From Mesorhizobium sp. M8A.F.Ca.ET.218.01.1.1 (GTDB lineage: Bacteria; Pseudomonadota; Alphaproteobacteria; Rhizobiales; Rhizobiaceae): a stretch of DNA of 64,000 bases. The stretch spans positions 1 through 64,000 of the forward strand of contig NZ_SRUZ01000005.1 in NCBI RefSeq assembly GCF_004791165.1. Direction: 5' to 3'. The position numbers and the translations under genes are program-made. The notes below the pieces were generated by a model that did no database searches, was not told the origin of the DNA, and saw nothing but the letters and a program-made list of their open reading frames with translations. Numbering within the stretch: the stretch's first letter is position 1; each line of letters opens with the position of its first letter. This document shows positions 2,706-55,172 of the stretch, piece by piece.

Positions 2706-2710
2706 GCGAA

Positions 2711-2738
2711 AAGGGCCGCCGGCTGCGGCGGCTCCCTT
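2711..2738 (+). terminator. GC-rich hairpin between adhesin and exporter genes
   Basis: A 7-bp perfect stem (GCCGCCG/CGGCGGC) with loop GCTG is extended by AAGG/CCTT across a 2-base bulge. It starts 6 bases after the adhesin stop. No T-run follows, so it may be a partial terminator or an mRNA 3'-end stabiliser that lowers exporter expression relative to the adhesin. Confidence 0.45.
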
Positions 2739-2769
2739 GACCTGACGAGTATCGAGTGGGGTTCTGGAA

Positions 2770-4464: not shown

Positions 4465-4483
4465 GCCGTGGTCGGAGAGATCG

Positions 4484-5821
4484 ATGAGCGACAGCGCCCT
4501 CACTTACCATAGCCTGCCCGGCGAGGCCGGCATCCTGGCTCCGGATTCCATCCGGGTGCCGGCCTATATCGGCCTGCTGATCATAATGGCCTTTTTCGGC
4601 ATTTTCGGCGGCTGGGCGGCCTTTGCCCCTCTGAACGGTGCCGTGCTCGCCGATGCCATCGTCAAGGTGGAAGGCAATCGCAAGAGCGTCCAGCATTTCG
4701 ACGGCGGCACGGTGAAGGAGATCCGCGTCAAGGATGGCGACGTCGTCAGGAAGGGCGACATAATGCTGAAGCTGGACGACACCAGGATTCGGTCCGAGTT
4801 CAATCTCTATGCCCAGCAATATGCGCTGTTGCGCGCAGCCGATGCCAGGATCCGTGCCGAACTGGACGGCAGCGAGGCTGTTGCCTTTCCCAAGGACATC
4901 CTCAAAGAGCACGAGGACTACCTCAAGGACGCAATGGCAAACCAGATCGCCGACCTGGAAAGCCAACGCGCCTCGATGGCCGGCGCCAAACAGATCCTTC
5001 AGCGGCGTATTGCCGAGCTCGAGGAGCAGATACGGGGCAAGCAGTCCCGAGTCGAATCCTACCAGGCCCAGCTCAAATCGACGATCGACGAGAAGGCCAG
5101 CCTGTCGAAGCTGCTCAAGGCCGGTTTGACGACCCGCCCACGCATCCTGGAACTGGAAAGGTCGGCCTCGGATTTGCAGGGCTTGATCGACGATAATCTC
5201 GGCGCCATCGGCGGCAGCCAACAGAGCAAAGCCGAACTCGAGAGCCAGATCGCACAATTGACCAATGAGCGCCGGACCAAGTTGTCGGCCATGTTGATCG
5301 ATACGCAATCGAACCTGTCCGACCTCATACCCAAGATGTTCGCCGCCCAGGCTGCCATGGACCGGGCCGAAGTGCGCGCGCCCTATGACGGCCAAGTGAT
5401 GGATCTAAGCGTTTTCTCGATCGGTGCGATCGTGGCGCCGGGCCAGACCATCCTCGACATCGTGCCGACCGAGAATTCGCTGATCGTCCAGGCACAGGTT
5501 CGCGTCGAGGATATATCGAACCTGCGTCCCGACATGGCCGCCGAAGTTCGTTTCACATCATACAAGCAGCGTTCGATACCCATCATTCATGGACGCGTCA
5601 CCCGCATTTCGGCGGATCGCATCACCGACACCAAGACCGGCTTTCCCTATTATCTCGCGGACGTGGCGGTCGATCCGGTGGAATTAGCCGCGGCCCCACA
5701 GATCGCGCTTTATCCGGGCATGCCGGCGTCGGTCATGATCGTTACCGAGCAACGCACGGCACTCGACTACATTTTAGGCCCGCTGGTTGTGTCGTTCCAC
5801 TCCGCGTTTCGCCAGAAATGA
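4484..5821 (+). CDS. HlyD-family type I secretion periplasmic adaptor
   Basis: Membrane-fusion protein of 445 residues. A single transmembrane segment lies at about residues 26-47, followed by a lipoyl-like half-domain (KVEGNRKSVQHFDGGTVKEI). A long Gln/Glu/Lys-rich coiled-coil hairpin spans about residues 130-290, then the second lipoyl half and beta-barrel with APYDGQVMDL near 302. This is the standard PrtE/HlyD layout linking the inner-membrane exporter to an outer-membrane channel. It is the last gene of the adhesin-secretion unit. Confidence 0.93.
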   Translation: MSDSALTYHSLPGEAGILAPDSIRVPAYIGLLIIMAFFGIFGGWAAFAPLNGAVLADAIVKVEGNRKSVQHFDGGTVKEIRVKDGDVVRKGDIMLKLDDTRIRSEFNLYAQQYALLRAADARIRAELDGSEAVAFPKDILKEHEDYLKDAMANQIADLESQRASMAGAKQILQRRIAELEEQIRGKQSRVESYQAQLKSTIDEKASLSKLLKAGLTTRPRILELERSASDLQGLIDDNLGAIGGSQQSKAELESQIAQLTNERRTKLSAMLIDTQSNLSDLIPKMFAAQAAMDRAEVRAPYDGQVMDLSVFSIGAIVAPGQTILDIVPTENSLIVQAQVRVEDISNLRPDMAAEVRFTSYKQRSIPIIHGRVTRISADRITDTKTGFPYYLADVAVDPVELAAAPQIALYPGMPASVMIVTEQRTALDYILGPLVVSFHSAFRQK

Positions 5822-38415: not shown

Positions 38416-39699
38416 TTATGTCGTCTGACTTTCACGGATCGGCGAAACGGTTCGTCCGCAAGCCAGGTATGTGCCCGAAATCAGGAAGATCATTAGCGTT
38501 GAATCGAGAATGTCGTGGCCGACAAGGATGCCTGTTAGGCCACCAACAAGGTATACGATGACGGCGACCACTATCATGGTCGCCCCGAACCTCTCTAACG
38601 GATCGGCACTGAAGCGAAGAACCCTCGTTGCGTTCCAGATCGCGACGATGAAGATCGCCGCCAATGATAACGCGCCAACAAGTCCGGCCTGCACCAAGGC
38701 TGTCAGAAAGCCGTTGTGAAAATGGTTGAAGCCCTGGCTCACCCCAAATTGCTTTTTGAAACCCTGCTGTGAAATCGCCCGGCTGGCGGATATGCCGTGG
38801 CCGAAAAATGGCGCTTCGCGAAATGCATCCATCCCAATGTCCCAGAGCCCAACGCGTAGCCCGAGCGGAGTGGAATGATCATCCTTGGTGGCGAGGGCGT
38901 TCCAGTCATCGAACAGAAAATGAGTGCGACCTACGATGATTGGAGAGGTGATTGCCGCGGTGAGCAGGCAGCAGGCGCCCGCAATCACCAGCAACCGCCT
39001 CATATTCGATCGCGTGAATCTCTGGCGATTGATCACAAGGACGGCGACAATGGCGATCAGCAAGGCTACCCAGATCATGCGCGAGCCGGAATAGACGGTC
39101 GCTACGGCGCCGGCGAGTACGGCGACGGTGAGTGTCTTCCAGGCTTTCTCTATTCCCGACACAGCGCCCGCAAGGCACATCATCACGGCGAGGCAGGTGA
39201 CCGTCGCGAACACGATCGGATTTCCAGCCCCTCCTTCGGCTCTCAGCATCCCGATCCAGTAATATTGGACAATGGTCAGCACCAGCGCTCCGGCACATGC
39301 TGCCGCGCTGGCCCGCACAGCAATGCGTGCAAGCGTCGCCTTGTCGGTGATGCTCCAGGTCGAATAGGAGATCGGGAACACCAACAAGGTGATCAGCGGC
39401 AGGAAGTGCGTGACATCAGCCCGCAGGGTGCCGTTGACGATCGATGCCAGGACCATCGCCGCGCAATAGGCATAGATCGCAAGGGTCATGGCGAGCATCG
39501 GCCGGTCGATGTTCAAGCGGCGTCGCCTGGCGACCAGCAACACCACCGACCAGAGCGCTCCACCATGAAATACGAAGCTCACCACCGACCCGAGCACTGG
39601 CGGCGAAAAGAAGCAGATGATCGAGAAGCCACGGTTGACCTGTTCTGCCGTCAGGTGGCGCCGCAGCGATGTAAACGAGTTCAATGCCTTGCTTCGCAA
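38416..39699 (-). CDS. O-antigen ligase/polymerase-family membrane protein 1
   Basis: Integral membrane protein of 427 residues with 10-12 hydrophobic segments. The Wzy_C-type periplasmic loop holds APFFGHGISAS, then FNHFHNGFLTALVQAGLVGA near residue 325-345, the usual His-containing motif of O-antigen ligases and exopolysaccharide polymerases. The start appears to be TTG at 39699, since no in-frame ATG or GTG fits, and its Shine-Dalgarno is weak. It either polymerises repeat units or ligates glycan to an acceptor. Confidence 0.85.
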   Translation of the reverse strand: MRSKALNSFTSLRRHLTAEQVNRGFSIICFFSPPVLGSVVSFVFHGGALWSVVLLVARRRRLNIDRPMLAMTLAIYAYCAAMVLASIVNGTLRADVTHFLPLITLLVFPISYSTWSITDKATLARIAVRASAAACAGALVLTIVQYYWIGMLRAEGGAGNPIVFATVTCLAVMMCLAGAVSGIEKAWKTLTVAVLAGAVATVYSGSRMIWVALLIAIVAVLVINRQRFTRSNMRRLLVIAGACCLLTAAITSPIIVGRTHFLFDDWNALATKDDHSTPLGLRVGLWDIGMDAFREAPFFGHGISASRAISQQGFKKQFGVSQGFNHFHNGFLTALVQAGLVGALSLAAIFIVAIWNATRVLRFSADPLERFGATMIVVAVIVYLVGGLTGILVGHDILDSTLMIFLISGTYLACGRTVSPIRESQTT

Positions 39700-39860: not shown

Positions 39861-41831
39861 TCAGGCCGCGACCGCCGATGAAGCTCCCTGGGTTCCTTCC
39901 TGCCAGGATTGGAACATCAAGACGTCCCAAAGCAGATACTGATTGTTACGGTGTCCGGAGAGGTGTTCAGACCACGCGCGCCGGATTGCATCGGCTCGAA
40001 AGAACCCGTCTTCCCGCAATCGGCGCTCGTCGAGCAGCGCCTCCGCCCATTCGCGAAGCGCGCCGCGCAGCCAGGTGTCGATGGGCACGCCGAAGCCCAT
40101 TTTCGGACGTTCGACGAGCGCTTTCGGAACATGTCGATAAAGCAGTTGCCTGAGCGGCCACTTTGTCTGGTCGCCGGCTCGCAGGATGGAAAGCGGCAGC
40201 GAAAGTGCAAAGCCTATCAGCCGGTGGTCAAGCAGCGGCACGCGGGTCTCGAGGCTGACTGCCATTGCCGCGCGATCAACCTTTACCAGGATGTCGTCCG
40301 GCAAATAGCTCATCATATCGATGTACATCATCCGCTCGACGTTGCCCGGCAGCGCTGGAAGCGCCTCCAATCCGGTCAGCATGGTGGGCGGCTCGTCCGC
40401 ATCCGGGATGATTTCGGTCGCTTCCCAGTGCGAGCAGAGGCGGCGGTAGACATCGTCCATTGTTCGCAATGAAAGAACCGATGCCGCCTTGTGGATCTTG
40501 TCGCCGACGCGCTCGCGGCGCAGGCGCTGCGGCAGAAGCGGCATGATCCCACCCGCGACATTGTTGTAGAGACCGGGCGAGGGCAGTGTCGCCAGGCTGG
40601 CCGACGCGCGGCGCAGCCCCATCGGGATGCGGGAAAGCTTGTTCCATAACGCATCGGCGAGTGCGTAGCGCGTGTAGCCGGAGAACAGCTCGTCGCCGCC
40701 ATCGCCCGACAACGCCACGGTAACGCTGCCACGCGCCAGTTTGGAGACGAGGAATGTCGGGATTTGCGAGGAGTCGGAGAAGGGCTCACAATAAATGCCG
40801 GGCAGATGGGGCACAACCTCTAGCGCGTCCCGCTCGCTGAGATAAAGTTCCGTATGGTCGGTGCCAAGGTGGCGCGCGACTTCCTTGGCATGGCCCGCCT
40901 CGTTGTAGCCGACTTCGTCAAATCCGATCGTGAAGGTCCGTACCGGTCGCGAACTGATCGACTGCATGACCGCCACGATGGCGGAAGAATCGATGCCGCC
41001 CGAGAGGAAGGCGCCGAGCGGCACGTCAGCGATCATCTGCCCTTCGAGGGCGCGGCGAAGATGACGTTCGAGTTCGTCGACCGCCTCTTCGGGGCTCCCT
41101 TGAAAAGGGTCGCGCTGGCCTTGTTCAGCGGCTTCCCTGGCGCTCCAATAGCTCTCGACATGTGGCTCACGCATCGGGTCGGAAAGGACGAGGAGATGGC
41201 CGGGTCTTAATTTCCGAATGCCTTGGTAAATGCTGTAAGGCGCGGGGATGTAATTGTGGCGCATCAGCAAAGCCAGCGCATTCCGGTCAATGTCCGGGCG
41301 CCAATCCGGCAGCGGTTGAAAGGCCTTGAGTTCCGAGGCAAACGCGAAGGCCTTGCCGATCCGGCCATAATATAACGGCTTTTCCCCCAGGCGATCACGT
41401 CCGAGAACGAGCGTTCTCTCCTTGCGGTCCCACAAGCCGAAAGCAAACATGCCGACAGCCAGTCCAAGCGCTTTGTTGGTTCCAAGCTCCTCGATTGCAG
41501 CCAGAAAGGTCTCGGTGTCGGAATGACCGCGCCATGCATGAGCGCCGAAGTCCCGATCGAGATGCGTCCGCATCTCGCCGTGATTGTAGATTTCTCCATT
41601 GAAGACGATGACATAGCGACCGCTGTGCGAAATCATCGGCTGCGCGCCGGCCGATGACAGGTCGATGATTGCCAGTCGGCGCTGACTGAGCGCGACCCCG
41701 GCCTCGGCGTCAGTCCAGATGCCGTCGCCGTCCGGTCCGCGATGCCGGATCATGTCCGCCATGCGGCGCACGCTTGAGGGGCCGCTGCTTGTCGCGGCCA
41801 CTCCACCCACAATGCCGACGATACCGCACAT
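39861..41831 (-). CDS. asnB: Asparagine synthase (glutamine-hydrolysing) family amidotransferase
   Basis: Protein of 656 residues. It starts MCGIVGIVGG, giving the catalytic Cys2 of the class II glutaminase domain. The C-terminal synthetase domain has the PP-loop LSGGIDSS near residue 276. The length is typical of AsnB enzymes found in polysaccharide clusters. Such copies often amidate a sugar carboxyl group, as reported for O-antigen uronic acids (WbpS/WbtH-type), rather than making asparagine. A TviB-type dehydrogenase two genes upstream supports that reading, which is inference. Confidence 0.9.
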   Translation of the reverse strand: MCGIVGIVGGVAATSSGPSSVRRMADMIRHRGPDGDGIWTDAEAGVALSQRRLAIIDLSSAGAQPMISHSGRYVIVFNGEIYNHGEMRTHLDRDFGAHAWRGHSDTETFLAAIEELGTNKALGLAVGMFAFGLWDRKERTLVLGRDRLGEKPLYYGRIGKAFAFASELKAFQPLPDWRPDIDRNALALLMRHNYIPAPYSIYQGIRKLRPGHLLVLSDPMREPHVESYWSAREAAEQGQRDPFQGSPEEAVDELERHLRRALEGQMIADVPLGAFLSGGIDSSAIVAVMQSISSRPVRTFTIGFDEVGYNEAGHAKEVARHLGTDHTELYLSERDALEVVPHLPGIYCEPFSDSSQIPTFLVSKLARGSVTVALSGDGGDELFSGYTRYALADALWNKLSRIPMGLRRASASLATLPSPGLYNNVAGGIMPLLPQRLRRERVGDKIHKAASVLSLRTMDDVYRRLCSHWEATEIIPDADEPPTMLTGLEALPALPGNVERMMYIDMMSYLPDDILVKVDRAAMAVSLETRVPLLDHRLIGFALSLPLSILRAGDQTKWPLRQLLYRHVPKALVERPKMGFGVPIDTWLRGALREWAEALLDERRLREDGFFRADAIRRAWSEHLSGHRNNQYLLWDVLMFQSWQEGTQGASSAVAA

Positions 41832-42900: not shown

Positions 42901-44181
42901 TTACAGACTCCAATACTTTAAATTGTCAGGGATTTCATTCGGCTTGATGGCAGACTTGATGTCGAACAGCGTCCCGCCCTGCTTGATCATTTGAAAAAGA
43001 CGCGCTCTCTCACTGGTGAGATAGACGTTGTGCGGTACCGCCAAGACAAGCGCCTGCAAATCGCTTATCTCATCGAGCGGCAGGATCGTTTCGCCGTGAT
43101 CGCGTCGAGCGGATTCGGCGTCGGCAAGGGGATCGTGAAGCTTGGGCACGATGCCGAACTGTCTCAGTTCCTTGACCATGTCGAACACACGGCTGTTGCG
43201 CAAATCCGGAACGTCCTCCTTGAAGGTCAGTCCGAGAATGCCGACGGAAGCTCCTTTGACTGATATGTCCGAGCGGATCAACTGTTTGACGACTTGCTGG
43301 GCAACGAAGGCTCCCATGCCGTCGTTGATGCGGCGTCCGGCGAGGATAATCTGCGGATGGTAGCCTTCGGCCTCCGCCTTGGCAGTCAGATAATACGGAT
43401 CGACGCTGATGCAGTGACCGCCGACGAAGCCCGGCTTGAAGGGGAGGAAGTTCCATTTTGTCGATGCGGCATCAATGACATCCTGCGTGCGGATCTCAAG
43501 CCGTTCAAAGATCATTGCCAGTTCATTCATCAGCGCGATGTTGAGGTCGCGCTGTGTGTTCTCGATGACCTTCGCCGCTTCGGCCACCTTGATCGACGGC
43601 GCGCGGTAGACGCCGGCATCGATGATGCTCCCATAGACGCTGGCTACGCGCTCCAGCGTCTCTGCGTTCTCACCGGAGACGACTTTGATGATCCGCCGCA
43701 GCGAGTGTTCCCGATCGCCTGGGTTCGCCCTTTCAGGCGAATAGCCGAGCGCGAAGTCATGAGGATGCCGCAGGCCGGATATATGCTCGATGATCGGCCC
43801 GCAAAATTCCTCGGTCACGCCTGGATAGACCGTCGATTCGAAAACGACGACGGCGCCTTTGCTCACCGCTTCACCGACAAGCTCCGATGCCAGTTTCAAA
43901 GGCGAAAGATCGGGAGCACGGTTGATGTCGATAGGCGTTGGCACGGCAACGATGAAGAAAGTCGCGCCTTTCAACATCTCTCGGTCGGTCGTAAGCGCGA
44001 TCGAGGATTCCTTGATCGCCGCCGTGTCGACCTCTCCGGTGCGATCGACGCCGCGACGCAATTCCTCAATCCGGCTTTCGCTTATATCGAAAGCAATGGT
44101 GCCCGGGAAAACCTTCCCAAACGCGACGGCTACCGGCAGGCCGACATATCCCAGACCGATAACGGCGATGCGTTCGGACAT
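42901..44181 (-). CDS. tviB: Nucleotide sugar dehydrogenase (TviB/WbpO-like UDP-HexNAc 6-dehydrogenase)
   Basis: Protein of 426 residues, the length of Vi-antigen TviB. NAD-binding GLGYVGLPVAVAFG near residue 8, middle-domain EVIENTQRD-like motif AAKVIENTQRDLNIALMNE near 215, and catalytic Cys in GGHCISVDPYYL near 262. It oxidises C6 of a UDP-sugar to a carboxylate using 2 NAD+. The TviB/WbpO branch usually acts on UDP-GlcNAc or UDP-GalNAc; exact specificity is inferred. AGGA precedes the ATG at 44181. It is divergent from the first glycosyltransferase gene. Confidence 0.88.
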   Translation of the reverse strand: MSERIAVIGLGYVGLPVAVAFGKVFPGTIAFDISESRIEELRRGVDRTGEVDTAAIKESSIALTTDREMLKGATFFIVAVPTPIDINRAPDLSPLKLASELVGEAVSKGAVVVFESTVYPGVTEEFCGPIIEHISGLRHPHDFALGYSPERANPGDREHSLRRIIKVVSGENAETLERVASVYGSIIDAGVYRAPSIKVAEAAKVIENTQRDLNIALMNELAMIFERLEIRTQDVIDAASTKWNFLPFKPGFVGGHCISVDPYYLTAKAEAEGYHPQIILAGRRINDGMGAFVAQQVVKQLIRSDISVKGASVGILGLTFKEDVPDLRNSRVFDMVKELRQFGIVPKLHDPLADAESARRDHGETILPLDEISDLQALVLAVPHNVYLTSERARLFQMIKQGGTLFDIKSAIKPNEIPDNLKYWSL

Positions 44182-44419
44182 CGGCGGAGTTCCTAAGTCA
44201 CTTATGTCCAGCGCTTGTATGGCAGGCTGCACGCCAATTCAACGATGTGTAGTTGCGAAGTGGGAACTCTCCACTCAAAATAGCGCCTGATCGATGCGCG
44301 TGCCGCCATCGTCTCGTGGCGCTCGATGTTGTGGATAAGATGCGGCAGGATTGGGTTTCGAGCCTCAAGACCCTACAAGAGCCGAATGGTCTGGACCAGT
44401 CAGCCAAGAACCTGAATGC

Positions 44420-45550
44420 ATGGATCGCATCGTTGTTGTCGTAAGCGAACCAAGATCCCTTGCAACCACGCGGGGACATCTTCTGCTTGCGCTGCGCGCC
44501 GCCGGATACGAAGTACATGCCCTGGCGCCAGTCGATGCCATGACCGTTCGTTGGCTGACCGAGAACGGCATCCGTTTTCATCCATTGCCCATGGAGCGTG
44601 CGGCTATTGCGCCATTCGGCGATACGCTTTTGGCTTTTCGTCTTTGCAGGAAGCTACGAGAGCTCAAACCCCAGGCCGTGCTGACCTGTGCGATCAAGCC
44701 GATCGTCTATGGCATACCCGCGGCGCTGATTGCGGGGGTACCGCGCCGGCACGCGCTTGTCACGGGCCTCGGCTATGCGTTCACGGACCGTCACAAATCT
44801 CTACGGTGGAGGATGGTCAATGCGGTGGCCCGGCTTCTTTATGCCGCGAGCCTGCGTGTTGCCACCACGGCCACCTTCCAGAACGACGATGACCGCAATG
44901 ACTTCGGTCGTCTGGGACTGCTCGGACGTACACCAGCCAATGTAGCCAACGGTTCAGGGGTAGATCTCGATCGATTCAAGGTTGCGCCATTACCAGAGAA
45001 GCCGCGATTTCTTATGATCGCACGCCTGCTTCGCGACAAAGGCCTCGGCGAATATCTGGGTGCGGCAAGGCTGGTTAAGGCAATTCGACCTGAAGCCCGT
45101 TTCGACCTGGTCGGCGATACGGATCCAAATCCCGCGGGATTTCCGGTATCGGAAGTTGAGGCAGCGGTCGCGGACGGAACCATCCGCTATCACGGGCCTG
45201 TGGAAGACGTCCGCGGGGTGATCGCCGATTCGCGTATCTTCGTGCTTCCATCCTACCGCGAGGGTACGTCGCGATCTGTCCTGGAGGCGATGGCAATGGG
45301 GCGCCCGGTGATCACGACAGATGCGCCGGGTTGTCGCGCGCCGATCGTTCCCGGCGTGAGCGGCCTGCTGGTGCCGGTCGGCGCCGCGCCCCGCTTGGCG
45401 GAAGCCATGATCCGCTTGATCGACAACCCAGGTGAAGCCGAATGCATGGGCAAAAACAGTCGATCGATCGCGGAAGAGCGCTATGATATTCGGAAAGTTA
45501 CCGCTCATATGATGGAAATCATCGAAGCCCGGCACCGAGCCACAGAATGA
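44420..45550 (+). CDS. Glycosyltransferase family 4 protein 1
   Basis: GT-B-fold retaining glycosyltransferase of 376 residues starting MDRIVVVVSEPRSLATTRGH. It carries the GT4 E-x7-E motif in EGTSRSVLEAMAMGRPVITT near residue 285, which binds the nucleotide sugar. The start has only a weak Shine-Dalgarno; longer in-frame sequence does not look coding. Cytosolic, probably membrane-associated, adding a sugar to the lipid-linked unit. Its stop overlaps the next start by 4 bases. Confidence 0.88.
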   Translation: MDRIVVVVSEPRSLATTRGHLLLALRAAGYEVHALAPVDAMTVRWLTENGIRFHPLPMERAAIAPFGDTLLAFRLCRKLRELKPQAVLTCAIKPIVYGIPAALIAGVPRRHALVTGLGYAFTDRHKSLRWRMVNAVARLLYAASLRVATTATFQNDDDRNDFGRLGLLGRTPANVANGSGVDLDRFKVAPLPEKPRFLMIARLLRDKGLGEYLGAARLVKAIRPEARFDLVGDTDPNPAGFPVSEVEAAVADGTIRYHGPVEDVRGVIADSRIFVLPSYREGTSRSVLEAMAMGRPVITTDAPGCRAPIVPGVSGLLVPVGAAPRLAEAMIRLIDNPGEAECMGKNSRSIAEERYDIRKVTAHMMEIIEARHRATE

Positions 45551-46395
45551 CGTTCGCGGGAAATCCATCGTCGAACCGATACGAGTTCGGAGCCAATTGG
45601 GCGTCGTTCATCGACAAGCACTACTCGGCGGAACGCCGCCGCATGGCGGCGGAGAAGCTCTTGTCCTTCCTCGGCAAGCAGACCCTCGAAGGCTTCGACT
45701 TCCTCGATATCGGCAGCGGCAGCGGGCTGCACTCGCTTGCCGCCTTCGATGCAAAAGCGGATAGGATACAGTCCTTCGACTTTGACCCGCTCTCGGTAAG
45801 CACAACCGGCAAGTTGCGGCAATTGGCGGGTGAGCCGACGAACTGGATCGTCGAACGCGGCGACGTGCTCGACGCCGACTATATGGAGAAGCTAGGCACC
45901 TGGAACCTCGTCTATTCCTGGGGCGTGCTCCACCACACCGGCGCGATGTGGCAGGCGATCGAAAATGCGGCGCGCACGGTTGCCCCCGGCGGTCTATTCT
46001 TCATCGCTCTCTATTCGTCGAATGTCGTGAAGCCGTCCGCGCAATTCTGGCTCGACGTGAAACGGCGATACAACGGCGCCAACCCTCGCCAAAGGCGGTG
46101 GATGGAGTACTGGTACATCTGGCGCTTCGGGCTCGGTCGCAATCCACTTCAACTGCCCTTGCTCGTGAAGCAGATCTATCAAAAGAAAAAAGGTCGCGGC
46201 ATGAGCTACATGACCGACATCCGCGACTGGCTGGGCGGCTGGCCTATGGAGTTTGCCGACGACCAGGCGGTGATCGATTTCCTGAAGAAACGGTTCGATT
46301 TCGAGCTCGTCAGGATATCTACGGGTGAGGCATGCACGGAGTTCCTTTTCCGGAGCCCGAACAGTCGGCCGCCCAAACGGAGCAAGTCGCTTTAA
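45547..46395 (+). CDS. Class I SAM-dependent methyltransferase 2
   Basis: Protein of 282 residues, paralogue of the 41.9-kb methyltransferase. It shares the RYEFGANW opening, SAM motif FLDIGSGSGLHS near 52-63, LVYSWGVLHHTG and RGMSYMTDIRDWLGGWP near 218-234. It overlaps the glycosyltransferase gene by 4 bases (ATGA), so the two are translated together; it may methylate the sugar that enzyme transfers. Its 3' end overlaps the convergent ABC gene by 4 bases. Confidence 0.88.
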   Translation: MTFAGNPSSNRYEFGANWASFIDKHYSAERRRMAAEKLLSFLGKQTLEGFDFLDIGSGSGLHSLAAFDAKADRIQSFDFDPLSVSTTGKLRQLAGEPTNWIVERGDVLDADYMEKLGTWNLVYSWGVLHHTGAMWQAIENAARTVAPGGLFFIALYSSNVVKPSAQFWLDVKRRYNGANPRQRRWMEYWYIWRFGLGRNPLQLPLLVKQIYQKKKGRGMSYMTDIRDWLGGWPMEFADDQAVIDFLKKRFDFELVRISTGEACTEFLFRSPNSRPPKRSKSL

Positions 46396-48221
46396 GCGGT
46401 CTGTCCGCCGGCTCTCGTCCAGATATGTGGCCGGCCGTTTTCGAGGGTGACGATCTCGTCGCAATTTTCGACTGTTGTGAGCCGGTGCGCGATGATCAGC
46501 ACCGTCAGGCCGGCGGGCAGCTCGCGGATCGCCTCCATGACCGCGGCCTCGGTCTCCGTGTCGAGCGCGCTCGTGGCTTCGTCGAAGACGAGCACGGAAG
46601 CCTGTCTGTACAACGCCCGGGCGATGCCGATGCGCTGGCGCTGACCACCCGATAGACGGACTCCACGCTCGCCGACCCGCGTCTCATAGCCTTGCGGCAA
46701 ACTTTCGATGAAATCCGCCAGTGCGGCCTGCTGCGCTGCATTGCGCACGCGGTCGCGGTCGATGTTGGCGGGATCGATGCCGAAGGCGATATTGTCGGCG
46801 ATCGAGGCGTCCGCCAGGAAGATGCTTTGCGGCACATGGGCAATCTGTCTTTGCCAGGCACGCCGTGTGGTTCCGTCCAGCCGCTGCCCGTCGATCTCGA
46901 TCACTCCGCCAGTCGGCTCGAGCAGACCCATTATCAGATCGACCGTCGTGCTCTTGCCGCTGCCCGTCTTGCCGATGAACCCGACCTTGCTTCCTTTCGA
47001 GATCGTGAGATTGAATCGCTCGAGTATCGGCGCTTGGTCAGAAGCGTAACGGAACGACACATCCTTGAGCATGATCGCTCGATCGAATGGGAGACGCTTA
47101 GGTGGCGGCTGGTTCCACTCTGGGCCGAGTGGTGCCTCGAGCGCCTGGAGCACGACTTCGGCGCCGGCAAGATTGCTCAGTATCAGGGCCCAATTGCCGT
47201 ATACAAGCTGCATGGATGGGAGCAGACGCTGCGCTCCAAGGACAAATGTTCCAAGTATCGGCAGAACCTGGCCGGCATCGTTCGAGCGGGTGATGAGGAA
47301 ATAAGCAAGCGCCGCGATGATCACCATACCCGCAGCTTCGATCGCGAAACGCGGAGCGCCCGCGGCAAGTGCGTTCATTGCATTCGCGCGCTGCAGGCGT
47401 AAATCGAGTTCGGTGTACCGCAACAGAAAATACGGTTGGGTGTCGTTGATGATAACATCGCGGATGCCACCCAGTCCCTCTTGGACAGATCGGATGCCTT
47501 CCGCCTGCGCGCTGGCGATAATTTGCGCATTCTTCTTGAGGTGCTTGCGGATGACGAGCGACATGGCGAGGTAGACCGCCCCAAAGCCCGCGAAGATAAC
47601 GAAGGTGATGAAAGAACTCAGAGCAAAAAGGGCAGCGACGATGAAGACGCCGATGACTATGCCGCTGATCGATTGCAACAGGGGCAGCATTACACCCGCG
47701 GTAATGGCTTGAACCTGGCGAAGCGCGGCCAACACCGAACTGGAATTGCGCGAAACGTGGTAGCTGTAGGGTTGGCGGAGTACTTGGTCATAGACCTTCA
47801 CGCCCACCTCATGTCCCAGCGAGAAGACATAAGAGTTCGTGGCCCAGGCAAGGAATATGCGCACGGCGCCGGCTATGATCGCCACCACCGAAAACAGAAT
47901 CGTCAAATCGAGAAGGCTGTCTGAAGAGCTGGTCAGCCGAAAGCCGGCAAGCTGGCGAGCGAGGAACGACTGGCCGCCAACCGCCTCGGGATTGGCGATG
48001 CGCGCAAGAAACGGCAGCAAGGCACCAAGCGTAGCGGCTTCCGCAAGTGCTCCGAACATCATCAAGACAAGGAGGCCGAAAAACTGCCTTTGTCTAGGCT
48101 TCGATACCTGCCGCCACAAGCGTCGCAGTGTGTCGAGAGTGCTGCCCGAGTTTCGGTTTCCGCTCAATGCCAAATCGATGTCCGCATTCAGAGCGCTCAA
48201 TGCACACGTTCGGCGCTCCAC
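46392..48221 (-). CDS. ABC transporter permease/ATPase (PglK/MsbA-type flippase or exporter)
   Basis: Half-size ABC exporter of 609 residues. The N-terminal membrane domain has about six hydrophobic segments (about residues 40-330). The ATPase has Walker A GKTGSGKST near 417, LSGGQRQR near 518 and FDEATSALD near 548. In a polysaccharide locus the likely role is flipping lipid-linked oligosaccharide, as PglK does; no Wzx-type flippase is present in the window. The start seems to be GTG at 48221 but lacks a Shine-Dalgarno, so a slightly shorter form is possible. Confidence 0.87.
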   Translation of the reverse strand: MERRTCALSALNADIDLALSGNRNSGSTLDTLRRLWRQVSKPRQRQFFGLLVLMMFGALAEAATLGALLPFLARIANPEAVGGQSFLARQLAGFRLTSSSDSLLDLTILFSVVAIIAGAVRIFLAWATNSYVFSLGHEVGVKVYDQVLRQPYSYHVSRNSSSVLAALRQVQAITAGVMLPLLQSISGIVIGVFIVAALFALSSFITFVIFAGFGAVYLAMSLVIRKHLKKNAQIIASAQAEGIRSVQEGLGGIRDVIINDTQPYFLLRYTELDLRLQRANAMNALAAGAPRFAIEAAGMVIIAALAYFLITRSNDAGQVLPILGTFVLGAQRLLPSMQLVYGNWALILSNLAGAEVVLQALEAPLGPEWNQPPPKRLPFDRAIMLKDVSFRYASDQAPILERFNLTISKGSKVGFIGKTGSGKSTTVDLIMGLLEPTGGVIEIDGQRLDGTTRRAWQRQIAHVPQSIFLADASIADNIAFGIDPANIDRDRVRNAAQQAALADFIESLPQGYETRVGERGVRLSGGQRQRIGIARALYRQASVLVFDEATSALDTETEAAVMEAIRELPAGLTVLIIAHRLTTVENCDEIVTLENGRPHIWTRAGGQTA

Positions 48222-48338
48222 GACAAGTCACAACAGATGCCCGCTGGCAACTTTATCACAGAAGCGCGAAGGTGACCTGTCCACAACTGCGCGTATGGGC
48301 CAGAGACCGTGATTGCGGTGAGGTGATATGCTTCAATC

Positions 48339-49250
48339 ATGGGTGACGCTATAAAGATTCGGGATCGAAGGCAGCGGCTGGCCTTAATTGCGGCATTGCT
48401 TCGTGCACTCGGCGTGTTCTCGGCAGGGGTGGGGACGGCATTTCTGTTCTTTGTGTCGGCATACCCGCTCGGATTGGTCAGCGCCTACCCGGCACCACCT
48501 GCTTCGGCAATTGAGGGGCCACTGGGGTTTGCACAGAGAGTTGCGGACGTTGATGATCTCTATCGCCGCACGGGTGAGCCGATGCAGCCATATCTTGAGC
48601 GTCTGACAACGGCGGTCGCGCGTGGAATGGTACACTATTGGACAGAAGGTGACCGCTGGTCGGAGGCCGATGCGTCCTACACCCGGATCGGGGTTTTCGA
48701 CAATTACTTGCTCTGGATGCTCAGCTTTCTTTCGGAATATCGGGAAAACCTGGGGAACTATGAATTTGTAACTCCCCGAAAGGCACTGGATCGGGGCTAT
48801 GGGTTCTGTTCCCAGGTTTCGAAGATCGTCTACTCTGTCCTTGCCGATCAGGGCATCGAAGCGACGATCTACAGTGCCCCCGAGCACACTGTAGTTGAGT
48901 CAAATGGCAACATTCTCGATTCCGACTATGGTGTCTTCGTTCCTCACTCGCTTGAGGATGTACAACAAGACCCGTCGATCATCGACACGTACTACGCGCA
49001 ATTCGGGCCGATGCTGCCTTTGCTAAGAAGGGCGTATGGTCAGGACTGGCAACCGCTCGGAACTGCCGAAGACTTCAACGGCGTGCGTGCGTACGAGGCA
49101 AAGTTCGAACGCCTGAAATGGGCTCCGCCGCTTGCGTTCCTTGCCATTGGTATTTTACTCGTCACCATCGGCATTCTGCTCCAGTATCTTCTTTTAGGAC
49201 GCGGCCGGCTTGTGCTGCAGCGGGTTCGCGGAATTGCTCGGTCCTCTTGA
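48339..49250 (+). CDS. Membrane-anchored transglutaminase-like protein
   Basis: Protein of 303 residues with one transmembrane segment at each end (about 13-40 and 262-287), placing the 220-residue middle domain in the periplasm if the basic N-terminus is inside. The middle has Cys157 in GYGFCSQ, His183 in PEHTVVES and Asp194/Asp196 in ILDSDYG. This order and spacing match the Cys-His-Asp triad of transglutaminase/papain-like folds. I do not recognise a named family. It stands among glycan assembly genes, so it may cross-link, cleave or attach something in the envelope. Function unknown. Confidence 0.7.
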   Translation: MGDAIKIRDRRQRLALIAALLRALGVFSAGVGTAFLFFVSAYPLGLVSAYPAPPASAIEGPLGFAQRVADVDDLYRRTGEPMQPYLERLTTAVARGMVHYWTEGDRWSEADASYTRIGVFDNYLLWMLSFLSEYRENLGNYEFVTPRKALDRGYGFCSQVSKIVYSVLADQGIEATIYSAPEHTVVESNGNILDSDYGVFVPHSLEDVQQDPSIIDTYYAQFGPMLPLLRRAYGQDWQPLGTAEDFNGVRAYEAKFERLKWAPPLAFLAIGILLVTIGILLQYLLLGRGRLVLQRVRGIARSS

Positions 49251-49361
49251 TTTCGTTTGCTCGTGACCATTTCTATAAGCCATCGCCTCGCAGAGGCTTC
49301 CGCTTGCAAGCGGCTGCGCCTAGCGGCAACCGGCGACCAATGAGGAAAGGCGGCGGAGCGG

Positions 49362-50645
49362 ATGACGCTGCGAGAGAAATTTCCGATGACTGATGCTGAA
49401 GGCCAACAGTCGGCTGCCGGGCCTTCTGCCGCACTGGCTAGAAAGCCTCGTCGCAAAGTACTCTTTGTCATCGGAACGCTTGACCTGGGCGGCACCGAGA
49501 GCCAGCTCGTGCTGCTTGCCAAGGAATTGAAGCAGCGCGGCTGGAAGGTAGAAGTCTTTGCGCTTTCACAAGGAGGTGTTCTCTCGGAGACGCTGAATCG
49601 CGCCGGGATCCGGGTATTGTACGGACTTCATCGGCCGAATCCCCTACCTGCGTCGCCGACAGTGGCCAAAGTGGGTGCCAAGTCGGGCGCGGCGCCGACG
49701 AGGCGCCCGAGTGTGAAGGCGATGCTGGTTCTCGGCGCAGCCGTCACTTCGCTTGTCCTGCGCATCGTCTTGACCCGGCCGCGCGTGGTCCACGCCTTCC
49801 TGCCGCTGACCAATTTCCTGGGCGCCTTGGCGGGGCGGGTTGCGCTGGCGCCATTTGTCATCACGTCGCGACGCGGTCTCGGCAACCATCAGGAACGGTG
49901 GCCCAGGCTCAAGCGAATGGACCGGATCGCCAATCGGCTTTCCCATGTGGTGGTCGCGAATTCGCATGCGGTCGCGGCCGATATGGCGGCTCGCGACGCC
50001 TATGATATCGACAGAATAAGGGTGATCCCGAACGGTCTCGATCTCAGCCGCTTCGATGACATCGTCCATCGCCGGGACGAAACCCGGCGGCGGCTCGGCC
50101 TCAGCCAGGACGAAGTCGGCATCATCATAGTCGCGAATTTAATCCCATACAAAGGGCACAGGGATCTCATTCAAGCATTCGCTCTTGCGAGCGAAAGCCG
50201 GCCGAATCTGAAGCTGTTCATGGCGGGACAGGACCGAGGCATCGGGCCGGGCCTGGCGGAAGAGGCACGGCGGCTCGGCGTCGGATCGAAAGTCCATGCA
50301 TTGGGATCACAGAGCGAGGTGCCGGAATTGCTCGCCGGCATGGATGTTGGCGTGATCGCCTCCCATGAGGAAGGTTTTTGCAATGCCCTGATGGAAAAGC
50401 TCGCGGCGGGTCTTCCTGTTGTCGCCACCAATGTCGGCGGAAATCCGGAGGCTATCTCCGGTATGCCGGGTTGTGTATTGGTGAAACCTCGTGACCCTGC
50501 CGATCTGGCTCGCGGGCTTCTAGCCGTTCTCGACCGATTGCCGGAGCCGACAGCCGACCGGGAATTTAGGCAACGGATGATGCGCGAGCGGTATTCGACA
50601 GGAGCTATGGTCGACGCATATGAACGCCTCTATCTCGTGGGCTGA
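49362..50645 (+). CDS. Glycosyltransferase family 4 protein 2
   Basis: GT-B-fold glycosyltransferase of 427 residues. N-terminal RKVLFVIGTLDLGGTESQL after a 25-residue polar tail, a short hydrophobic stretch near 125-145, and the E-x7-E motif in EEGFCNALMEKLAAGLPVVA near 342. The start at 49362 has GGAG close upstream; an ATG eight codons later is also possible. It is followed after 3 bases by the second polymerase/ligase gene, so the pair is co-transcribed. Confidence 0.9.
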   Translation: MTLREKFPMTDAEGQQSAAGPSAALARKPRRKVLFVIGTLDLGGTESQLVLLAKELKQRGWKVEVFALSQGGVLSETLNRAGIRVLYGLHRPNPLPASPTVAKVGAKSGAAPTRRPSVKAMLVLGAAVTSLVLRIVLTRPRVVHAFLPLTNFLGALAGRVALAPFVITSRRGLGNHQERWPRLKRMDRIANRLSHVVVANSHAVAADMAARDAYDIDRIRVIPNGLDLSRFDDIVHRRDETRRRLGLSQDEVGIIIVANLIPYKGHRDLIQAFALASESRPNLKLFMAGQDRGIGPGLAEEARRLGVGSKVHALGSQSEVPELLAGMDVGVIASHEEGFCNALMEKLAAGLPVVATNVGGNPEAISGMPGCVLVKPRDPADLARGLLAVLDRLPEPTADREFRQRMMRERYSTGAMVDAYERLYLVG

Positions 50646-50648
50646 CGA

Positions 50649-52676
50649 ATGAGCGGGATTGCCCACTCGGAACGCTCGGCGAGCTCAACGCATCCGCTGC
50701 GGGCGGTCCTGACGAACATTTCGGCCGGACTCTGTGCGTTCCTCATCGTCATCTGCCAGTCCTGGTTCTTGCCATACTTTATGCCGTTCTTCACCGGACG
50801 GGACGAGTTCGCCAGGCTGGTGTTCCATGCGCTCTATGGCGGAGTGCTGATTGTTTCGGTGGCCGTTCTTGTGACGCGTCGAGACGTGCGTAGCGCGATC
50901 CTTCTGCTTGCTATCACCGCCGCCATGGCAGTCGTCCCGGTTGCGCTTCATCCGATCGGGATCGTCGCCAAGTGTTACCTGATCACACTTTTCCTCGGCG
51001 GCGCGGCGATTGTGCTCATGCTTGCCTCAGCTCCCGCAATCGTGTTGCGCCTCTCGGCGTCAGTCACAGCGCTCAATGCGGTGGTTTGCTTGCTCGACCT
51101 CCTCTTTGCCAGCGGCTTCACCAACACGCCTGGCCGGGCCGCCGGTTTGGCGGTCAATCCCAATGTCGCAGCGGCCGGACTTCTGCTTGGGGCTGCGGCG
51201 AGCTACCGCGCCGTCGCACAAAAGTGGCGTGCAAGCTTCCTCGTGCTCGTAGCCATAACGCTTCTCGCGACGCTTTCTCGCTCGACCCTTCTTGCCGCCC
51301 TTGCAACGGTGGCGGTTCCGATTGTCGTCCGCATTTGGCAACAATTTCGCAGCGGCCGTCGTTTTCAGATCGATCTTGGGGGCTTGGGCCGTGCGGTCGT
51401 CGTCGCTTTTGCACTGCTGGGGGCGATCGGCATCGCGTTGACCACAAATGCTTCCTTCCGTATTGCCACGGACGAATCCTATGCCGGAATTTTGTCTGTA
51501 AGCACGGCGCTCAACGAAGCATCGAAGGCTGTCGATCGATCTCCGCCAGCCGCTACGGTGTCAATTGCGCCACCGCCTGAAGGGGCGTCGGCAAATCAAC
51601 CGGCTCCGCCTCGGGCAAGTTCTGCTGACACTACCACGCCCCTCGCCGTCGAACCCCCGAGCGGTTCGGCCGCCGCTAAGGGCGGTGCATCCGCGGACGC
51701 CGTAAATTCGTCTCCTCTGCCATCCGGCCCCGCGCCCGCGGCTAACCAATCCACGAACGTCGCCAAGATGCAGGCGCTCGGCGAACGCCTGACCGATGAA
51801 GGCAAGAGGAACTCGATTTCGGCAAGGGCTCTCTTTCTCGAGCGCGGCCTGCTCGCCTATCGAGAAGGCGGTTTTTTCGGTCGCGGACTTGAACAGGCGC
51901 AAGCCCTTGCGCCGCACAACACCTTCGTCCTGTTTGCAATCGCTTTCGGTCACCTCGGCTGGCTGATTCCGATTGGCTTGGTCTGCTTCGCCTTTTGCTT
52001 TGCCCGGAACGCCGGTGATCTTGCCCTTGGTGTCGCGGTTCTAGGGGTGATGCTGACCTCGCATGACCTCTTGCTGACACCAAGTCTCTTTCTTCCAATC
52101 GCGCTCGGAATTGGCGGCATGCTCGCCGCACGAAAAGTGGCTGCCTCAAAGTCGTCGCCGACAGAGAAAGGCGAGCCTTGGAGCTTTGCTTGCGGAACAG
52201 TGGCAGGCGTCGTCGCCTTCGGGGCCGGCTGCATCGCGATACTGCTCGTCACACCACCGCTTATTACCGGGCGGCTGCAGAACGAAACCATGTTTGCCGC
52301 CCGAGGCGGATACGAAACGCTGCTTCCGCGGCCACCATTTCCCGGCCTTTTCCAGTTAGGCAACCTGTCTGACATTCCGCCTTTGCAAGCATCCAATCTG
52401 CGCGAAAACGGAACATCGCTACATCGCGTCGGCTGGTCTTCTCACGCATGGCCTGCCGTCAGGCAGGGCGAGTATACTTTTCGCCGGCCGGATGCTGTGC
52501 TGTTCGCGCCCACGGATTCGAGCGACCCTCGCAGCAATGACCGAACCTACGAGGTCGCCGTTCCGCTGTCGGTCAGTGCACTATGCTTCATTCTTCTGGG
52601 CACGATCATTGCATGGTCGATTGCAACTGTGGCTGCCGTGACGCCACTAACAAGTCGGTCTAAAGCCTCCGGATGA
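50649..52676 (+). CDS. O-antigen ligase/polymerase-family membrane protein 2 (large, atypical)
   Basis: Integral membrane protein of 675 residues, longer than the usual 400-450. About ten hydrophobic segments; the Wzy_C-type motif GRGLEQAQALAPHNTFVLFA lies near residues 415-435. Two unusual parts stand out: a Pro/Ala/Ser-rich stretch at about 295-372, probably an extended periplasmic linker, and a non-membrane domain at about 540-640 before a last transmembrane segment. A second ligase-family protein at 38.4 kb suggests one polymerase and one ligase, but which is which is unclear. Confidence 0.85.
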   Translation: MSGIAHSERSASSTHPLRAVLTNISAGLCAFLIVICQSWFLPYFMPFFTGRDEFARLVFHALYGGVLIVSVAVLVTRRDVRSAILLLAITAAMAVVPVALHPIGIVAKCYLITLFLGGAAIVLMLASAPAIVLRLSASVTALNAVVCLLDLLFASGFTNTPGRAAGLAVNPNVAAAGLLLGAAASYRAVAQKWRASFLVLVAITLLATLSRSTLLAALATVAVPIVVRIWQQFRSGRRFQIDLGGLGRAVVVAFALLGAIGIALTTNASFRIATDESYAGILSVSTALNEASKAVDRSPPAATVSIAPPPEGASANQPAPPRASSADTTTPLAVEPPSGSAAAKGGASADAVNSSPLPSGPAPAANQSTNVAKMQALGERLTDEGKRNSISARALFLERGLLAYREGGFFGRGLEQAQALAPHNTFVLFAIAFGHLGWLIPIGLVCFAFCFARNAGDLALGVAVLGVMLTSHDLLLTPSLFLPIALGIGGMLAARKVAASKSSPTEKGEPWSFACGTVAGVVAFGAGCIAILLVTPPLITGRLQNETMFAARGGYETLLPRPPFPGLFQLGNLSDIPPLQASNLRENGTSLHRVGWSSHAWPAVRQGEYTFRRPDAVLFAPTDSSDPRSNDRTYEVAVPLSVSALCFILLGTIIAWSIATVAAVTPLTSRSKASG

Positions 52677-52776
52677 TTTTCGGAACAATAAGCCTCGCGC
52701 CGAAGATCGACAGGTGATGATCTTCGACGTAGAGGCTATGTCCGGCGCTGTCGTCGCATGGCACAGAGCTGCGGGC

Positions 52777-54792
52777 TCAATTGCTCATGCTGGTTGTCGA
52801 AGGCTGCATGGCGTTCGCTGTCGATACACGAGTTCGCCCGTCGGCTGCGGCTAGGGCCTGGTGGAGACCGATCGTTCGCGCAAGGCCGACGTCGGTCTCC
52901 GGTGTCAAGTTTCGGCGCAGGTGAGCTTTGTCGCGGTAAATGAACTCGCCATTGATGTAGGTGGCGCAATGCCTGTCCGGACACATGCCTTTGAGTGGAT
53001 CGACGAAGAACACCCCATTTTCATCCGCAAGCGACTCTAACGCGGTCACCACCGGCGACCAACGCCGTAGGATTTGCTCGCTATCCATGTCTGTCGGACA
53101 ACGTCTCAGCATGCCGCTTTCGCGCATTGCCGCGCAGGACGTCAGATCCACGCCTGGCACAGGCACCTGTCCAATGATTCCGATGCGTCGTTGCCGAGCG
53201 GTGATTTCTTTTACGAGGCTGAGCAAGCCATCGCGCAACAGCAGGACCCTGTCCGCCTGCCGGCCGTCATCGGCGACGACATTGGTGTCAGCAAGGTTTG
53301 TCCAGGCGGAAGACAGGACCACGAGGTCGATATCTTTTCGCTGTCTCAGCATATGGACGACCGCCTTTCGGGAAGACGCGCAGCTTTCCTGGTAGTCGGG
53401 GTGCTCTGGAAAATCGCGATGGACACCTTCTCCGAATGCGGCCGGGCACGCGCGATAAAGAAAGAAGGCGGTATTCTCGTGCTGGCCGGCAGCATCGAAC
53501 AGCGGGGCGAGGTGTTCGGCGTGGCTATCGCCCCACAGGACGGCGTGATGTCTCGCTTTGCCCCAGGGGGCCCCAAACGCGCAAAACGTGCTGCCCAGCT
53601 CAGGAATGACGACCGTCTGTGGACACGGCCAGTCCCACATCACCTCGAGGCTGCGCATTGCCTCGGCTTCTTTCGGAATCCTGCTGGTGAAACCGCCGGC
53701 TTCGAAGATCGCATTGCCGCTCAGGCAAACTGTCACCGCGGCGGCAACACCGGCGGCAAATGCCCTGGATGGAGGCGCCCGCGGACGGCGAACGGGTTCC
53801 TCGACGAACCGCCAAGAGAAATACGCCGCCAGCCCTGCCACGGCGACAAGGACAGACGCTTCGGCCGCCGTCGGCATTTCGGTGCCTGCATAGTGACGGA
53901 AGAAAACCAGGATCGGCCAATGCCAGAGATAAAGGCTATAAGAAATCTTGCCCGTCGATCGCAAAGGTGCGCTCGCAAGCAGCGCCGAGATCATTGACTG
54001 CGAACGCGGCCAGATGAGCAGGCCAGCGCCGATCACCGGGAAGAGAGCGCTCAGCCCCGGAAACGGTTGGTTCGGCGACAGCCAGATGGTGCTGGCGGCG
54101 ACCAGGCAAAGGCCGACCAGTCCGAAAGCTTCGGAAGTGCCTCGGTGGCGAACGGGCGCCGCAAAGACCAGCAGGCCGCCGAGAGCCAGTTCCCAGGCTC
54201 GGCCGAAGGGAAGATAGAACGCCTGTTTTGGATCGATCGCCACCAGATGGAGGGCAATCGAGAAACTAATCAGTGCGACGGCACCGATGAGCGCGATGAC
54301 CGGCAGATGGCGGCCCCGCGCCAACCGGTTCGCGGCCAGAAGCAAAACCGGCCATGCCAGGTAGAATTGCTCTTCGACGCCCAGCGACCAGAGATGGAGC
54401 AGCGGCAGAAGCGCCGACTCGCGATCGAAATAGCCCGTGTTCCAGAGAAAGTAGTAGTTCCCCAGCCCGAACGTCGAATAGGTGGCACTGCGCCCCAAGT
54501 CGGCATAGTCCCCGGGGAGCAACAGAAACCATCCCGCAATGAGCGAGAAGCAGATCGTTACCAGCATCGCCGGCAGAATGCGGCGCATGCGCCTGGCGTA
54601 GAACTCGATCAGGGACAGTTCGCCGCCTTCAGCCACCAAAAGGCGGGTGATCAAATAGCCAGAAATGACAAAGAAGATATCGACGCCGACGAAGCCGCCT
54701 CGAAAGCCGGGCACGTCAAAATGGAAAAGAATGACGGCGACCACTGCGATTGCGCGCAATCCGTCGATATCTGGCCGATAGTCGGACTTCAC
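52777..54792 (-). CDS. OafA/YrhL-type acyltransferase with C-terminal SGNH domain
   Basis: Membrane O-acetyltransferase of 671 residues. The acyltransferase-3 domain begins YRPDIDGLRAIAVVAVILFHF and has about ten hydrophobic segments to residue 370. The periplasmic SGNH-hydrolase-like domain carries VLWGDSHAEHL near 415 and a late RDKAHL that may hold the catalytic His. Such two-domain enzymes O-acetylate surface glycans. I use a GTG start at 54792 because GGAGGG lies 4-5 bases upstream; an ATG 16 codons earlier has no Shine-Dalgarno. Confidence 0.9.
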   Translation of the reverse strand: MKSDYRPDIDGLRAIAVVAVILFHFDVPGFRGGFVGVDIFFVISGYLITRLLVAEGGELSLIEFYARRMRRILPAMLVTICFSLIAGWFLLLPGDYADLGRSATYSTFGLGNYYFLWNTGYFDRESALLPLLHLWSLGVEEQFYLAWPVLLLAANRLARGRHLPVIALIGAVALISFSIALHLVAIDPKQAFYLPFGRAWELALGGLLVFAAPVRHRGTSEAFGLVGLCLVAASTIWLSPNQPFPGLSALFPVIGAGLLIWPRSQSMISALLASAPLRSTGKISYSLYLWHWPILVFFRHYAGTEMPTAAEASVLVAVAGLAAYFSWRFVEEPVRRPRAPPSRAFAAGVAAAVTVCLSGNAIFEAGGFTSRIPKEAEAMRSLEVMWDWPCPQTVVIPELGSTFCAFGAPWGKARHHAVLWGDSHAEHLAPLFDAAGQHENTAFFLYRACPAAFGEGVHRDFPEHPDYQESCASSRKAVVHMLRQRKDIDLVVLSSAWTNLADTNVVADDGRQADRVLLLRDGLLSLVKEITARQRRIGIIGQVPVPGVDLTSCAAMRESGMLRRCPTDMDSEQILRRWSPVVTALESLADENGVFFVDPLKGMCPDRHCATYINGEFIYRDKAHLRRNLTPETDVGLARTIGLHQALAAADGRTRVSTANAMQPSTTSMSN

Positions 54793-55172
54793 GGCTCCCT
54801 CCGGGTTATTTCCCGGCCTCACAGCCCAATTGCGTATCATGAGTCGATGGCCGGACATATGCAACGGCGGCACCCGCGATTCGACTTACAAGTCGCATTT
54901 CGAGAAACGTGGGGATACCCTCACAATTTGTTTCGCGCTGGAGCGACGAAAACCTAAACATTGGTGCGCGTGTGCCAGAATCAGTCCTGCTCCTGGACCG
55001 GGGCATCGGACCAGTGGCGGCTTTTCGGAGGGAGTATTCATTCGTTAATGATATCGGGGCGATGAAAACTTGCTCGCTTGATAGAAAAACGGGTTGTTCG
55101 TCCCGTCCCTGACTGTATAGAAGATTGTCCCGTGCGTTGCGAGGCCACGGGTCGTTCTGGAGGCTGTCAACG
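54793..55172. other. 380-bp divergent intergenic region in the polysaccharide locus
   Basis: This is the longest gene-free stretch of the window. It separates the acyltransferase gene from the epimerase operon and is richer in A+T than its surroundings. It holds an imperfect inverted repeat TCATT-CGTT-AATGA at 55038-55051. Short open frames occur on both strands but none has a convincing start and codon use. Promoters for both sides and a regulator site are expected here; I cannot identify them firmly. Confidence 0.5.

Follow-up and report, generated by a model that had tools for sequence, protein, structure and literature searches.

The window analysed here, a 64,000-nucleotide stretch of the Mesorhizobium sp. 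M8A.F.Ca.ET.218.01.1.1 genome, holds a surface-polysaccharide locus in which a small gene for a putative membrane-held transglutaminase-like protein lies between the gene for an ABC flippase, divergently oriented upstream, and a downstream pair of genes encoding a GT4 family glycosyltransferase (GT4b) and a Wzy-like protein (Table 1). The ABC protein scored 298 bits with HepA, 294 bits with MsbA and 281 bits with PglK, all below cut-off. The Wzy-like protein contains a Pro/Ala/Ser/Thr-rich stretch, in which these residues make up 53 of the 80 positions at 285-364. A second, clear Wzy_C protein (E 4.8e-23) is encoded at 38416-39699, across the locus from the first; polymerase and ligase roles may therefore be divided between the two Wzy_C proteins. 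At 75-5821 of the window, a repeat-rich adhesin-like frame is followed by ABC-like and HlyD-like frames, a set that by eye resembles one for type I secretion.

Table 1. Positions in the window of the transglutaminase-like gene, the parts of its product and the surrounding polysaccharide genes
Feature	Position	Strand	Basis or remark
Double-anchored transglutaminase-fold protein	48339..49250	+	303 aa from ATG; fold predicted
First membrane helix, residues ~14-49	48378..48485	+	hydropathy, predicted helix; basic residues ahead (N-in)
Predicted periplasmic transglutaminase-like domain, residues 50-261	48486..49121	+	trimmed model, fold matches; membrane side inferred from charges
Cys157, start of predicted helix 157-170	48807..48809	+	sequence, model, alignment
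His183, first residue of predicted strand 183-188	48885..48887	+	sequence, model, alignment
Asp194, last residue of predicted strand 191-194	48918..48920	+	sequence, model, alignment
Second membrane helix, residues ~262-287, directly after conserved Lys260-Trp261	49122..49199	+	hydropathy, predicted helix
ABC flippase/exporter	46392..48221	-	closest HepA, MsbA, PglK, all below cut-off
GT4 family glycosyltransferase (GT4b)	49362..50645	+	Pfam, synteny, dS
Wzy/O-antigen-ligase-like protein	50649..52676	+	Wzy_C 20.8 bits, under 31.7 cut-off
AT3-SGNH acyltransferase	52777..54873	-	relatives beside or near transglutaminase-like gene in two phage contigs
GT4 family glycosyltransferase (GT4a), same locus	44351..45550	+	Pfam, synteny
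Nucleotide sugar dehydrogenase (uronic acid supply)	42901..44232	-	family matches
Asparagine-synthase-family amidotransferase	39861..41831	-	family matches
Approximate extent of block putatively exchanged between Mesorhizobium lineages	47000..52700	.	identity profile, dS

The 303-residue protein has a sole cysteine, Cys157, within a GYGFCSQ motif, and histidines at positions 99, 183 and 203, of which His183 lies in EHTVVE, while an LDSDYG motif beginning at residue 193 supplies the acidic residues Asp194 and Asp196. Hydropathy analysis revealed hydrophobic stretches at residues 14-49 and 268-286, and in the predicted structure helices 2-49 and 262-302 flank a mixed core, in agreement with the original prediction of a transmembrane helix at each end. 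As basic residues precede the first hydrophobic stretch and follow the second, the middle of the protein should be periplasmic. Prediction supports a protein that is anchored by both ends in the inner membrane and exposes its catalytic domain to the periplasm; the description 'double-membrane-anchored' is better worded as held in the inner membrane by an anchor at either end. Whole-gene dN/dS was low in seven pairwise comparisons (0.12-0.24), indicating that 48339-49250 is coding and under purifying selection. The gene ends evolve faster than the core in every pair for which both values were computable, one core and one end value being saturated.

To characterise the fold, we used a full-length structure model (15 sequences, mean pLDDT 79.9) and, because many of its matches were merely to long helices in proteins of no relation, a model of the domain alone (residues 50-261; 17 sequences, pLDDT 75.3, pTM 0.79). 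Foldseek alone returned no match at E <= 0.001, the best being 6.6e-3 for the domain model and 0.066 for the full model. A second look placed 4u65 chain E, which we take to be LapG (144 residues at 3.7 Å), first for the full-length model, ahead of LapG and Ceg10, with Z scores of 9.4, 9.0 and 8.4, and gave the domain model Z scores of 8.8 with LapG (132 residues at 3.7 Å), 8.3 with Ceg10, 7.6 with transglutaminase 2 (143 residues at 4.0 Å), 7.4 with vasohibins, 6.9 with both the geldanamycin amide synthase ShGdmF and TglA, and 6.8 with both arylamine N-acetyltransferase and PNGase; single Z values of this kind are middling, 7-9 being a range in which chance matches occur. Of the 50 matches listed for the domain model, 44 were by name LapG, Ceg10, transglutaminase, vasohibin, GdmF, TglA, arylamine N-acetyltransferase or PNGase, all presumably kin of the transglutaminase fold. 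Moreover, the order of the predicted elements, a helix bearing the cysteine followed by strands with the histidine and the aspartate, is that of the transglutaminase-like superfamily. The modelled fold is therefore almost certainly transglutaminase-like, as was first proposed; neither outcome named at the outset as refuting the proposal, an unrelated fold or homologues without the cysteine and histidine, was seen.

In sequence searches, the protein had no match in Pfam or NCBIfam at E <= 10, in PHROGs at E <= 0.001 or among PDB sequences at E <= 10. This includes the Pfam family Transglut_core (PF01841), which did not match the window protein at E <= 10 and scored 18.5 and 17.1 bits, under its cut-off of 23, with distant relatives from two other genomes (G830 and G848). 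Membership of the BTLCP family (Peptidase_C93, PF06035) was rejected (hhalign probability 3.3%, best hmmsearch E 27), a profile comparison yielding a weak 20-column match around the His...Asp region and no more. When the window's genome was searched with PF06035, five other proteins were found (contigs C185, C88 and C207), without the transglutaminase-like protein among them; the window's contig encodes two of the five (467840-468322 and 512442-512765). Of the traits of BTLCP proteins, a LapG-like fold is present in the predicted model (Z 8.8-9.4), while in place of a signal sequence and a soluble periplasmic form there is an anchor helix at each end.

We then assessed how far the family extends, counting the window's own genome in each sample. 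The gene was present in 13 of 146 Mesorhizobium genomes and in 1 of 394 genomes of the family sample. A single-sequence query of the class sample gave matches in 6 of 289 genomes, namely the window's own, G400, G634 and three left out as weak (L007, L008 and L009, E 0.003-0.008), whose frames were by eye short or unlike. With profile A1, 3 of 299 genomes in the phylum sample were positive, adding G830 and G848. Profile A2 was positive in 2 of 48 genomes of the order to which these two belong and in 4 of 385 of the class (the own genome, G400, G634 and a partial match in G615). The last of these (L053, E 5e-6) spans 50 model positions only and, its frame having been read, was not counted. The order of G400 is represented by one genome, which has the gene. 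No match was obtained with P0001 among plasmid records or with P0002 or P0003 among plasmid and phage records, and the G848 relative had one plasmid match (40 bits, E 0.09).

Together with relatives on two phage contigs, this gave a set of 19 sequences: 13 from Mesorhizobium, including the window's own, four from other bacteria and two from phage. Cys157, His183 and Asp194 are kept in all 19, down to about 20% identity, and stand in the order of the superfamily throughout, from which a catalytic role is predicted. The original prediction had named Cys157, His183 and Asp194 or Asp196 as the triad and had expected homologues to keep the cysteine and histidine; Asp196 is retained in 18 sequences and is Ser in that of G848, making Asp194 the likelier third catalytic residue. 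Asn122, Glu142, Gln159 and Trp261 are conserved in all except the second phage sequence, the most diverged member. Taken together, a transglutaminase-like fold with a Cys-His-Asp triad is well supported by prediction and conservation. Among the members scanned, none scored over cut-off with a Pfam, NCBIfam or PHROGs model, yet the family is spread over several groups of bacteria and two contigs of phage origin.

In all 13 Mesorhizobium loci the gene lies between the ABC flippase gene and the GT4-Wzy pair, and the window's arrangement, with the ABC gene divergently upstream and GT4b downstream, recurs in 12 of 12 relatives with flanks. Of the 146 genomes, these 13 and no others carry the Wzy-like gene, its start falling 1.37-1.46 kb past the transglutaminase-like match in each. 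The idea of a glycan assembly locus therefore holds in every Mesorhizobium carrier found, with the polymerase-like gene alongside. The dehydrogenase, GT4a, asparagine-synthase-like and AT3-SGNH genes were present in all seven longer stretches (L002-L004 and L029-L032), some of them cut by the stretch end. In L029 and L030, the diverged loci of G794 and G756, the site next to the ABC gene lacks the methyltransferase gene MT2. Between the Wzy-like gene and the first AT3-SGNH gene, L002, L030, L031 and L032 (and, by eye, L029) carry a second AT3-like gene, which shares about 30% identity with the first.

Relatives in other bacteria adjoin different genes. In G830 the neighbour is a GT4 gene; in G634 it is a GT2 gene together with one for a PMT_2-like protein (below cut-off); and in G400 an XrtA-type polysaccharide export protein (TIGR03027) and an HprK-related kinase A, both over cut-off, are encoded nearby. 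Also near the relative in G830 (L025 13613-18459) are matches to exosortase-A-associated ligase and decarboxylase models, below cut-off, and one to methylaspartate mutase subunit E, over cut-off. In G848 the gene adjoins that of a 709-residue multi-helix protein without a Pfam match (L026 7030-9159), which carries a DGSNP..NGR.Y motif near its N-terminus similar to the TDSSDPR.N.R.Y motif of the Wzy-like C-terminal region. A region common to the two proteins was considered from a blastp match (E 0.002 over 20 aa) and was not supported by profile search, in which the G848 protein ranked second among noise (E 0.34), so that it serves as a lead only; the motif likeness is likewise non-significant by profile. 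The same C-terminal region is unmatched in 4 of the 13 Mesorhizobium relatives (G756, G794, G682 and G757). No relative of the window's AT3 was found around the genes of G830, G848 and G634 (19.5 kb each) or G400 (4.5 kb).

Compared with G794 and G756, the window shows a DNA identity mostly in the range 76-88% as far as position 47,000 or so, of 59-74% from there to about 52,700 and of 73-86% beyond. Against these two genomes respectively, dS was 1.6 and 2.6 for the ABC membrane domain, 2.4 and 2.3 for the transglutaminase-like gene, 1.6 and 1.2 for GT4b and 2.8 and 1.7 for the Wzy-like gene, values above about 1.5 being near saturation and imprecise, as against 0.6-1.0 for the asparagine-synthase-like, dehydrogenase, GT4a, AT3 and SDR genes and the ABC nucleotide-binding domain. 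The membrane domain of the ABC protein lies inside the diverged block and its nucleotide-binding domain outside. The nearer genomes G686 and G705 showed no such block, dS being 0.30-0.87 throughout and highest for GT4b in G686. A merely fast-evolving protein is not favoured as an explanation, since synonymous divergence is raised too. The parts of the locus expected to meet the glycan, the transglutaminase-like gene among them, moved or diverged together, and we read the block as a putative exchange by recombination between Mesorhizobium lineages.

The two phage contigs place the gene in a further setting. The first, IMGVR_UViG_3300012974_000010, encodes a relative at 37% identity; immediately after it, in the same orientation, comes an AT3-SGNH gene whose product is 45% identical to that of the window over 662 aligned positions. 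Beyond this, on the opposite strand, are genes for an 889-residue protein without known function, a tail fibre (GP38-like region) and a tape measure. In the other direction, two frames without Pfam or PHROGs match are followed by E1-E2 ATPase, VIT1 and SDR genes, bacterial-type genes such as might be met at a prophage edge. This AT3 has 120 viral relatives, of which we scanned the neighbourhoods of the best 80 (flanks up to 3 kb); a transglutaminase-like gene was found near two, the first contig included, and none within the flanks of the other 78. The second case, IMGVR_UViG_3300048924_000297 (E 2e-13), was found in this way; here the two genes share a strand, lie 0.87 kb apart with opposite-strand frames between them, and adjoin tail-fibre and baseplate-wedge genes. 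Both phage AT3-SGNH proteins match phrog_6705, an O-antigen acetylase (E 5.7e-148 and 3.4e-145), and are 42-45% identical to the window's AT3, compared with 28-35% to the second AT3 of the four Mesorhizobium loci compared. In a tree with long branches, the first phage sequence groups with Mesorhizobium sequences (89/95) and the second is unplaced. Phage-borne Oac, the O-antigen acetylase to which these AT3-SGNH proteins are related, acetylates O-antigen and blocks superinfection, excluding further phage (PMC9558356); this is a similar setting of phage-carried glycan alteration, although the likeness concerns the AT3-SGNH partner, the nearby transglutaminase-like gene having no PHROGs match.

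These pairings with AT3-SGNH point to surface-glycan modification by the transglutaminase-like protein, and the data as a whole suggest that it chemically alters the cell's sugar coat. The original prediction had left the choice between cross-linking, trimming and covalent attachment; given the phage pairings, decoration of a glycan is the likeliest of such roles. It is also the simplest role for a membrane-held periplasmic thiol enzyme that accompanies an acyltransferase in phages as well as in a coat locus. We consider it just probable that the protein is a double-anchored, transglutaminase-fold enzyme of periplasmic acyl or amide transfer that decorates a surface glycan beside AT3-SGNH. Such an inner-membrane enzyme, held by both ends, would bring its periplasmic Cys-His-Asp domain to surface-polysaccharide modification. 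Cys157 would take up an acyl group, from a primary carboxamide, an ester or an acyl donor, as a thioester and pass it to an amine or hydroxyl of a lipid-linked or nascent glycan. Both the glycan substrate and the transfer chemistry are what we infer, and the chemistry could alternatively be hydrolysis of an amide or of an acyl group. One candidate donor is a carboxamide (an asparagine-synthase-like amidotransferase and a nucleotide sugar dehydrogenase are encoded in the locus); another, speculatively, is a group that AT3 brings out.

Chief among the alternatives is a regulatory role: as a cysteine protease or transamidase of the periplasm, the protein would act on an assembly protein, such as the Wzy-like protein or the flippase, and so set the amount or export of the glycan. 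A possible model is HvyA of Caulobacter crescentus, a BTLCP protein encoded in a capsule locus, which prevents capsulation during G1 and depends on C192, H226 and D241, although the D241N variant remains functional (PMC4241560). On that account HvyA resembles our protein in being transglutaminase-like and periplasmic, with Cys-His-Asp and a polysaccharide export locus that includes a polymerase/ligase gene, and is its closest functional precedent; it differs in being soluble, with a signal sequence (PMC4241560), and, by the profile searches above, in its sequence family. As a point against decoration, this nearest precedent reduces capsulation, and modification of a glycan is not among its known activities. 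The earlier remark of knowing no named family with this layout in a polysaccharide locus is qualified by the HvyA precedent, although HvyA is soluble and of another sequence family. Also in favour of a regulator, LapG, an adhesin protease of the BTLCP family (PMC4241560), is likewise periplasmic and is the top structural match, at 15-18% identity in structural alignments; and the diverged block unites the transglutaminase-like gene with those of the Wzy-like protein and the flippase membrane domain, as fitted partners would. Against a regulator, the protein lies outside HvyA's sequence family, other bacterial relatives adjoin differing protein types (G830, G634 and G848) rather than a single protein target, and the parts of the phage contigs that were read (17.6 of 49.1 kb and 7.0 of 43.8 kb) showed no recognisable gene for a Wzy protein, a glycosyltransferase or a flippase, though several of their frames have no family match. 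We regard this alternative as rather unlikely.

Less probable still is a linker of glycan to protein or of protein to protein, in which the flippase and the Wzy_C-family protein would form an O-glycosylation system and the enzyme would cross-link a periplasmic protein or attach the glycan to it. Wzy_C proteins include O-oligosaccharyltransferases, classical transglutaminases cross-link proteins, and the ABC protein scored about as well with PglK as with MsbA and HepA; against this, the conserved block showed no recognisable acceptor protein, and a glycan is what the pairing with an O-antigen acetylase in phages points to. That the fold is a non-catalytic scaffold merely holding flippase, transferase and Wzy-like proteins together would accommodate the two membrane anchors and the co-divergence with the machinery, but is very improbable, since a scaffold has no need of a Cys157-His183-Asp194 set kept in 19 of 19 sequences.

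Glycan decoration, the reading we prefer, also has to be set beside other known enzymes. TgpA-type membrane transglutaminases are membrane-bound with an extracytoplasmic transglutaminase-like domain, but have several N-terminal helices and other Pfam domains; the protein described here has no Pfam match. ShGdmF and arylamine N-acetyltransferases, which share its fold class by structural match, form amide bonds through a catalytic cysteine, though on small molecules, in the cytoplasm and without membrane anchors. Among the open-licence papers listed, HvyA was the sole relevant precedent, with nothing on a transglutaminase in joint connection with exosortase and exopolysaccharide or with prophage, O-antigen and lysogenic conversion, and, by titles and the start of abstracts, nothing on such a gene in Mesorhizobium.

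As a tentative and rather doubtful extension, the family might represent a class of glycan-conversion enzymes, double-anchored transamidases that place an amide-linked group on a surface polysaccharide, paired with AT3-SGNH; in Mesorhizobium they would belong to a coat-type cassette that can be exchanged, and in temperate phages they would be a means of changing the host coat. With a single-cysteine protein, an exchangeable cassette and a compact phage pair, the proposal is directly testable. The tailoring of glycans in the periplasm is for the most part ascribed to acyltransferases, glycosyltransferases and ethanolamine or phosphate transferases; if decoration by this protein is true, an enzyme with a transglutaminase fold would extend that repertoire by an amide or acyl chemistry.
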